Source: Tautonia plasticadhaerens (GTDB taxonomy: Bacteria; Planctomycetota; Planctomycetia; Isosphaerales; Isosphaeraceae). Taken from it: 64,000 bases of DNA. Location: NCBI RefSeq assembly GCF_007752535.1, contig NZ_CP036426.1:1798001-1862000 (forward strand). Direction: 5' to 3'. The position numbers and the translations under genes were made by a program. Positions 26,924 through 31,036 of the stretch are shown here, piece by piece. The notes below the pieces were generated by a model. That model made no database searches, was not told the DNA's origin, and saw only the letters and a program-made list of their open reading frames with translations. The stretch's first letter is position 1, and each line of letters starts with the position of its first letter.

Positions 26924-26940
26924 GGTCTTGCCTCGAACTT

Positions 26941-27282
26941 GCGGCCCTAGCTCAACGGTTAGAGCAGGGGACTCATCAACGAAATGGTGGCGCCGGGGGG
27001 CGACCCCCGGACGCGAACCGGGTGAATTGCGGGAACCCTAACCCGGGCGAGGGCATCCGTCCTCGACCGGCACGGCGATCCGCAGCCAAGCCTGGTCGGG
27101 CTCAGGTGGCCAGGACGGTTCAGAGACTAGCGGGGTGAGTCCCAACAATAACCCCCGCCTCGAGCGCCCGGCCTCCAAGGCGACCGTCCCCGGTCGTCGG
27201 GGAGGATGAGATAGTCCGAGCCCCGCGGAAACGCGGGGGCCCTCGAATCCCTTGGTTGCAGGTTCGAATCCTGCGGGCCGCA
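26941..27282 (+). tRNA. tRNA-Ile2(CAU), interrupted by a group I intron
   Basis: Exons 26941-26976 and 27246-27282 join into a 73-nt tRNA without an encoded CCA. The acceptor arms GCGGCCC/GGGCCGC pair perfectly, with discriminator A. The D-arm is GCTC...GAGC. The anticodon arm AGGGGA-CUCAUAA-UCCCUU has anticodon CAU, and the T-arm is GCAGG-TTCGAAT-CCTGC. G1-C72 and a Y11:R24 D-stem exclude an initiator. The body TTAGAGCAGG.GACTCATAAT..CTTGGT closely follows tRNA-Ile2, whose C34 is changed to lysidine by TilS to read AUA, so this is tRNA-Ile(AUA) rather than elongator Met. The intron follows the anticodon, after U36. Confidence 0.9.
26977..27245 (+). ncRNA. Group I self-splicing intron in the anticodon loop (269 nt)
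   Basis: All core elements can be read. P1: exon CAU pairs with the internal guide GUG at 26987-26989, giving the U.G splice pair. P2: CCGGGGG-GCGA-CCCCCGG (26993-27010), a GNRA loop. P element AATTGCGGGAA (27025-27035) and Q element CCGCAGCCAAG (from 27080), forming P4 via TGCGG/CCGCA. R element CAGAGACTAG (27121-27130) and S element GATAGTCC (27210-27217), giving P7 (GACTA/TAGTC). P9: CCCCGCG-GAAA-CGCGGGG near 27221-27238, again a GNRA loop. The intron ends with G27245. No homing endonuclease is encoded. The site and layout match the Azoarcus tRNA-Ile(CAU) intron (IC3 type), which is shorter (about 205 nt). Confidence 0.9.
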
Positions 27283-31031: not shown

Positions 31032-31036
31032 GTCTT

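Follow-up and report, generated by a model that had tools for sequence, protein, structure and literature searches.

How does Tautonia plasticadhaerens read the AUA codon? The stretch analysed here (the window, 64,000 nucleotides of contig NZ_CP036426.1) contains a tRNA gene with the anticodon CAU whose halves are separated by an insertion. An earlier note, made from the sequence alone, took this insertion to be a group I intron in the gene for tRNA-Ile2, the lysidine-modified tRNA that reads AUA. According to a 2014 review, bacterial tRNA group I introns occur in cyanobacteria and in a few alpha- and beta-proteobacteria, the intron of cyanobacterial tRNA-Leu being an ancestral one at a fixed place in the anticodon loop (PMC4033280). 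A group I intron is described in the Azoarcus pre-tRNA-Ile (PMC3984707), and the tRNAscan-SE 2.0 paper counts 36 genomes in which the fMet or Ile2 gene is missing due to group I introns, naming Gloeobacter and Synechocystis for fMet and Acidovorax and Burkholderia for Ile2 (PMC8450103). We found no report of a planctomycete tRNA intron in the open-access literature searched, which lacks most subscription papers, and words beginning with 'Plancto' are absent from the main texts of these three papers and of PMC11835236. The earlier remark that no such intron had been described for planctomycetes is uncontradicted by that literature; databases of predicted introns may already contain such sequences. 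The element described here is of a known kind; for this lineage we found no open-access report of one.

The split gene and its putative ribozyme

The interrupted tRNA-Ile2(CAU) gene occupies window positions 26941-27282, with the insertion point after U36 (36/37). RF00028, the Rfam covariance model for group I introns, matches positions 26939-27238 with 50.3 bits (E = 8e-10), barely above its gathering score of 50; homologues from the same family, Isosphaeraceae, reach up to 76 bits. Searched over the whole genome, the model returns this intron as its single match, yet the same search missed a second intron, in tRNA-Lys(UUU), described below. ARAGORN run without introns overlooks the gene; given the joined exons, it calls a normal cloverleaf with anticodon CAU, and these exons fold with a z-score of -4.2. 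With introns allowed the program recovers most split genes and misplaces the intron; its anticodons were ignored, and the exon boundaries of split genes were read by eye and by pattern. No homing endonuclease was found in the Tautonia intron, in which the longest stop-free frame is 68 aa and has no Pfam match, and a scan for a sigma-70 promoter and a terminator found nothing. The minimum-energy fold of the precursor (z -3.45) was discarded as evidence, as such a fold cannot form the P3/P7 pseudoknot. Positions 26977-27245 are confirmed as a complete group I intron in tRNA-Ile2(CAU): the earlier note had the coordinates of the 269-nt element exactly, had it placed after the CAU of an otherwise normal tRNA and lacking an endonuclease, and the covariance model check that it proposed bears it out. 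The elements of the gene are the following.

26941-26976, plus strand: 5' exon of tRNA-Ile2(CAU), through the anticodon C34 A35 U36; the joined exons form a normal CAU tRNA
26977-27245, plus strand: group I intron, 269 nt, last base omega-G 27245; matched by RF00028 and aligned with 40 further introns
26987-26989, plus strand: internal guide GUG (P1), pairing with exon CAU 26974-26976, the pair at the 5' splice site being U.G; every one of the 41 introns forms all three pairs
26990-27014, plus strand: P2 hairpin, GCGA tetraloop 27000-27003; 7 of 9 pairs changed on both sides in 41 sequences
27018-27024, plus strand: P3 5' strand (3' strand 27165-27171); 99.6% of cells paired, compensatory change in 1 of 7 pairs
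27028-27033, plus strand: P4 5' strand (3' strand 27079-27084); 100% of cells paired, 2 of 6 pairs compensatory, in one sequence each
27125-27129, plus strand: P7 5' strand (GACUA), which contributes to the guanosine site and pairs with the 3' strand, UAGUC 27212-27216, in 41 of 41
27130-27158, plus strand: P7.1 helix GCGGGG/CCCCGC, located between P7 and P3, its loop near-invariant; seen in 40 of the 41 aligned introns
27172-27205, plus strand: P8 hairpin, of varying length among genomes; 3 of 7 pairs compensatory
27218-27244, plus strand: P9.0 (GAG 27218-27220 with CUC 27242-27244) and P9 hairpin, GAAA tetraloop 27228-27231
27246-27282, plus strand: 3' exon of tRNA-Ile2; CCA not encoded

The structure was examined in an alignment of 41 homologous introns with ten exon bases per side, 40 from the family and one (L118) from another planctomycete family; L082/L105 of genome G015, in which the 3' exon is cut off, was left out. 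With the P7 pseudoknot included, 97.4% of 3140 cells are paired, as compared with merely 36.7-51.5% for slid structures. Compensatory changes, on both sides of a pair, are seen in 33 of 77 pairs versus 14.9 in shuffles, and on none of five measures did any of 500 shuffles reach the observed value; the structure was derived from this same alignment of related sequences, so both controls favour it somewhat. RNAalifold, with P7 omitted, gives 32 of 72 pairs. Double changes in P2, P5, P6, P9.0 and P9 are the strongest part of the covariation support: all three P9.0 pairs form in 41 of 41 introns and each shows compensatory change (in 10, 1 and 1 sequences), as do four of the six P9 pairs. The pair 26977-26986, adjoining P1, co-varies as well, the anticodon stem is paired in 99.5% of cells, and P7 shows a single A-U to U-A change, in one sequence. 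The U.G at the 5' splice site and the terminal G are found in all 41 introns, features that are not independent evidence since the search pattern demanded the terminal G and the exon ends. The core by which membership of group I is judged, P3-P8 and P4-P6 with the P7 pseudoknot, is present and backed by covariation. All of the anatomy proposed earlier (the P1 guide GUG, GNRA-capped P2 and P9, P4 and P7) is recovered in the 41-intron alignment, and P7.1 is a feature absent from that proposal.

Placed between the P7 5' strand and the P3 3' strand, P7.1 is lacking in L118, while its loop is nearly unchanged across the family and in metagenome-assembled genomes (MAGs) of other phyla. The alignment contains no compensatory changes in P7.1, the pairs of which vary by G-U alone, so the helix rests on conservation and is unproven by co-variation. 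Subgroup IC3, the Azoarcus type, is defined by a small core without P7.1, and we rejected this assignment since the helix forms in all but one of the aligned introns. The Azoarcus intron is about 205 nt long, shorter than the 269 nt in Tautonia; its P1 is likewise CAU/GUG, and to our knowledge it has no P7.1. The Ile2 introns of Azoarcus, Acidovorax and Burkholderia sit in the same tRNA as that of Isosphaeraceae, which differs in being near-fixed in a family of another phylum; they are likened here by description.

The tRNA, its copy number and the codons it serves

By similarity, the CAU tRNA is probably Ile2 rather than Met. The best 10 of 5916 matching E. coli records are all annotated as tRNA-Ile, and the one inspected has the anticodon CAU, that is, Ile2. 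ARAGORN cannot tell Ile2 and calls this E. coli gene Met, and annotators often label CAU tRNAs as tRNA-Met; among the 15 phage matches listed for the joined exons, 11 are tRNA-Met, two are tRNA-Ile and two have no feature. The Tautonia genome encodes tilS: the model TIGR02432, whose cut-off is 93.6 bits, scores 165.1 bits there (E = 8e-48). In the family, 44 of 45 genomes have a TilS match, and 42 of these exceed the cut-off; control genomes match the model too, all 14 of them at E 0.001 and 10 with scores that exceed the cut-off. The E. coli matches and the presence of tilS agree with the identity that had been assigned to the gene.

The gene is single-copy, as the earlier note had supposed. 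A joined-exon search of the genome finds no second Ile2 gene, and the 64 tRNA hits include no Ile(UAU), of which an intron-split form would escape the tRNA model search. The other CAU genes are two read as initiators (window positions 31036 and 31342) and one elongator Met (C1:3273557). A second intact tRNA-Ile2 had been named as the finding that would weaken the argument for essentiality; none was found in the genome, and the gene would be essential. Elsewhere in the genome (G000:C1:1488002-1490663, minus strand; L038 6003-8664) 27 divergent tRNA genes, for the most part low-scoring, are packed into a dense array; they are extra to the normal set, ARAGORN assigns them to all 20 amino acids, and the array perhaps stems from a mobile element. 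One of them is a degenerate CAU tRNA (L038 7304-7375), called Met by ARAGORN and of uncertain identity.

Codon use was counted in one 64-kb window, in 33 ORFs chosen mechanically by GC content. There AUA makes up 5 of 15865 codons (0.32 per 1000). It is rare yet present in 5 of the 33 ORFs, so tRNA-Ile2 is little used but needed. AAA stands at 1.26 per 1000 and UUA at 0.32 per 1000; UUA is as rare as AUA, yet the Leu(UAA) gene of Tautonia is intact.

A second tRNA gene of this genome, for tRNA-Lys(UUU) (G000:C1:2350888-2351276; L106 1501-1889), is split by a group I intron of 317 nt between U34 and U35 (34/35). No further Lys(UUU) gene was seen; the genome's two remaining Lys genes are CUU. 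Across the family, this intron is present in 36 of 40 genomes with a recognisable 5' half (35 with both exons, and G037, cut by a contig end), and four genomes, all from a single genus (g13), have the gene uninterrupted. The Lys(UUU) intron resembles the Ile2 intron in occurring in the same genomes, in being near-fixed and in that its longest frame (in the Tautonia copy) has no Pfam match; it differs in belonging to a separate clade (support 100/100), in its length of 281-338 nt and in being missing from g13. Both family-wide introns occupy tRNAs for codons that are rare in the 33 window ORFs, AUA and AAA.

Distribution and inheritance

The earlier note had suggested a search of planctomycete Ile2 genes for insertions at the same site. 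The Ile2 36/37 intron is present in 41 of 45 family genomes and, outside the family, in L118. In 40 of the 41 both exons flank it at the identical site, and G015 has the 5' exon and the intron up to a contig end. The intron is almost fixed in the family and is no singleton. The 40 complete family copies range from 252 to 416 nt in length, and the exons are nearly identical across the family. RF00028 matches were found in 43 of 45 family genomes: in G036 (64% complete) and G009 (96%) they lie in tRNA-Lys alone, and G027 (77%) and G044 (74%) have none. In these four genomes we found no Ile2 gene, split or intact, and no Ile2 5' half. The D-loop of the Tautonia gene is one base longer than in relatives; an Ile2 5'-half pattern with the shorter D-loop, applied to five genomes, matched G015 alone. 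An uninterrupted Ile2-like anticodon arm is seen in 0 of 36 family genomes versus 219 of 397 in the class sample, where some three-mismatch matches among the places listed are tRNA-Lys(CUU)-like, so that intact Ile2 of that form numbers at most 219. In a named genome collection, an exact 19-nt core pattern occurs on 35 contigs, with Singulisphaera acidiphila DSM 18658, Singulisphaera sp. GP187, Tautonia sociabilis, Paludisphaera soli and Aquisphaera insulae among the carriers; exons were read solely in the four contigs whose titles name other phyla.

In the class sample as a whole, RF00028 matches occur in 78 of 397 genomes, that is, in 36 of 36 family members and 42 of 361 others, and a phylum-wide search gave 14 of 393; the class-wide searches used strict filters, and their counts are lower bounds. 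Patterns assign the non-family loci to Ile2 33/34 (12), Leu(UAA) 34/35 (10), fMet 33/34 (3), Asn(GUU) 35/36 (2), Arg(CCU) 36/37 (1) and Ile2 36/37 (1, L118). On inspection, five more loci look like Leu 34/35 or Ile2 33/34; they failed the strict pattern. The Leu(UAA) 34/35 introns (L116 and others) lie at what we take to be the position of the cyanobacterial tRNA-Leu intron. The Ile2 33/34 introns of other planctomycete families (L120, L125, L127-L130, L137, L138, L141, L145, L146 and L154), between U33 and C34, are a distinct lineage and one clade on the tree described below; tRNA-Ile2 appears to have been invaded at two sites, 33/34 and 36/37. In another family, a 677-nt group I intron of an initiator tRNA (L119, genome G287) encodes a PD-(D/E)XK endonuclease (PF11645, E = 1e-48). 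Twelve further loci in other Planctomycetia are in rRNA: eleven group I matches in 23S rRNA (L107-L110, L113-L115, L121, L132, L134 and L139) and one within a 16S rRNA gene (L112). One family member, G034, has a weak RF00028 match (L102, E = 0.006), which we read as a Leu(UAA) gene with a 225-nt insertion at 33/34; on the tree it is a long branch.

A tree was built from 60 tRNA introns and rooted at its midpoint. It includes 18 of 41 Ile2 36/37 introns, 9 of the 35 Lys entries (which come from 28 distinct genomes) and every one of the 33 entries in the six remaining classes; left out were the 12 rRNA loci, five loci rejected by the strict patterns (L133, L135, L144, L148 and L153), the unassigned L104, L149 and L151 and the partial L082, L103 and L105. 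The 17 sampled family Ile2 introns are one clade (support 98/99). Under the midpoint root, its sister clade (98/88) consists of four tRNA-Leu(UAA) 33/34 introns, L226, L236, L244 and L253, from MAGs named Myxococcales, Deltaproteobacteria (two contigs of one MAG) and Proteobacteria; they are nearest among the sampled introns, which include no Azoarcus sequence. These four are like the family Ile2 introns in P7.1 sequence, and unlike them in tRNA, insertion point (33/34), phyla and length (241-260 nt). The Leu(UAA) 34/35 introns of other planctomycete families are on a different branch from the Ile2 introns. L118 (genome G056), at the same Ile2 36/37 site and without P7.1, branches outside the family Ile2, the Leu 33/34 and the two Asn introns. 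Judged from the tree, the 36/37 site would either have been taken twice, or have held an ancestor that later moved to Asn and Leu; two label changes for Ile2, Asn and Leu are needed under either history.

Pairwise distances between introns were compared with those between the host TilS proteins, a single-gene proxy for the species tree, in the 26 genomes that had both intron and TilS among the loci fetched. The correlation is r = 0.83, and none of 5000 permutations was as high. Since the intron distances track host TilS, inheritance of the Ile2 intron looks mainly vertical. No stop-free frame longer than 125 aa exists in the 41 Ile2 introns, and no Pfam domain was matched in the three scanned, the Tautonia copy included, which makes present mobility by homing unlikely. 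No plasmid matches the intron and eight phage matches fall in the 3' exon, reaching no more than nine bases into the intron, so an origin in a mobile element is unsupported.

Splicing, alternatives and significance

We consider it very probable that this is a working self-splicing intron in the Ile2 gene, present before the family diversified and passed down mainly vertically. Its anatomy, covariation, co-inheritance with the host and single-copy status are established by computation. The chemistry would be the two-step, guanosine-initiated reaction that is textbook for group I introns. Pairing of the guide GUG with exon CAU would give P1 and place the usual U.G at the 5' splice site; the bond after U36 would be attacked by an external guanosine occupying P7, and the freed 5' exon would attack after omega-G 27245, the anticodon stem and P9.0 keeping the exons aligned. 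The joined tRNA would then be lysidinylated by TilS, which could act only after splicing, and charged with isoleucine by IleRS. The intron would have resided at Ile2 36/37 since before the family diversified, inherited mainly with its host and without a homing endonuclease. In looking ancestral and fixed in the anticodon loop it is like the cyanobacterial tRNA-Leu intron, from which it differs in tRNA and site.

Could the gene instead be a decaying pseudogene, with a degenerate or badly spliced intron and AUA reading taken over by another tRNA? AUA is so rare that the loss might be tolerated, and a degenerate CAU tRNA exists in the array. However, compensatory changes accompany a preserved core in introns from 19 family genera and from one genome outside the family, the exons hardly vary across the family, TilS is nearly universal there and AUA is still used in the window ORFs; we regard decay as scarcely credible. 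That repeated homing or horizontal transfer into a preferred site, and not vertical inheritance, explains the family-wide presence is very unlikely. Group I introns are mobile in principle, L118 carries a different intron at the same site, and the nearest lineage lies in tRNA-Leu of other phyla. Against this stand the correlation with host TilS, the single clade, the lack of long frames and Pfam matches, and the failure to find an empty site in any of 36 family genomes.

A different alternative grants splicing and makes it a control: slow or conditional maturation of tRNA-Ile2 and tRNA-Lys(UUU) would limit translation of genes with AUA and AAA codons under some conditions. The two introns do lie in the only genes found for these rare codons, and both are kept in most of the family. 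However, tRNAs for rare codons may simply tolerate slow splicing; Leu(UAA) is intact in spite of the equal rarity of UUA, as is Lys(UUU) in the g13 genomes; and rarity was measured on mechanically chosen ORFs of one window. Such control seems unlikely. In an extended form, likewise improbable and slightly more so, translation of AUA and AAA throughout the family would pass through two ribozymes kept for their effect, with splicing that responds to guanosine, magnesium or temperature metering the two tRNAs and the P7.1 loop making a lineage-specific tertiary contact or binding a protein.

Returning to a working, mainly vertically inherited intron, a practical consequence concerns annotation. 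A tRNA model search of the Tautonia genome listed neither Ile2 nor Lys(UUU); gene finders blind to introns miss both, so the genomes look short of two needed tRNAs. The class sample, with seven further tRNA intron site types (one of them the lone, weak L102), is a good set for the study of repeated invasion of the anticodon loop, and cultured carriers of the Ile2 intron are available in Singulisphaera acidiphila DSM 18658, Tautonia sociabilis, Paludisphaera soli and Aquisphaera insulae. Being near-fixed and twofold, the occurrence is of more than routine interest. Isosphaeraceae would be a bacterial family that apparently needs a ribozyme to decode AUA and, in most members, AAA as well. Next to the tRNA-Leu of cyanobacteria, it would provide the second example of a tRNA intron in bacteria that has apparently been stable through the history of a large group.
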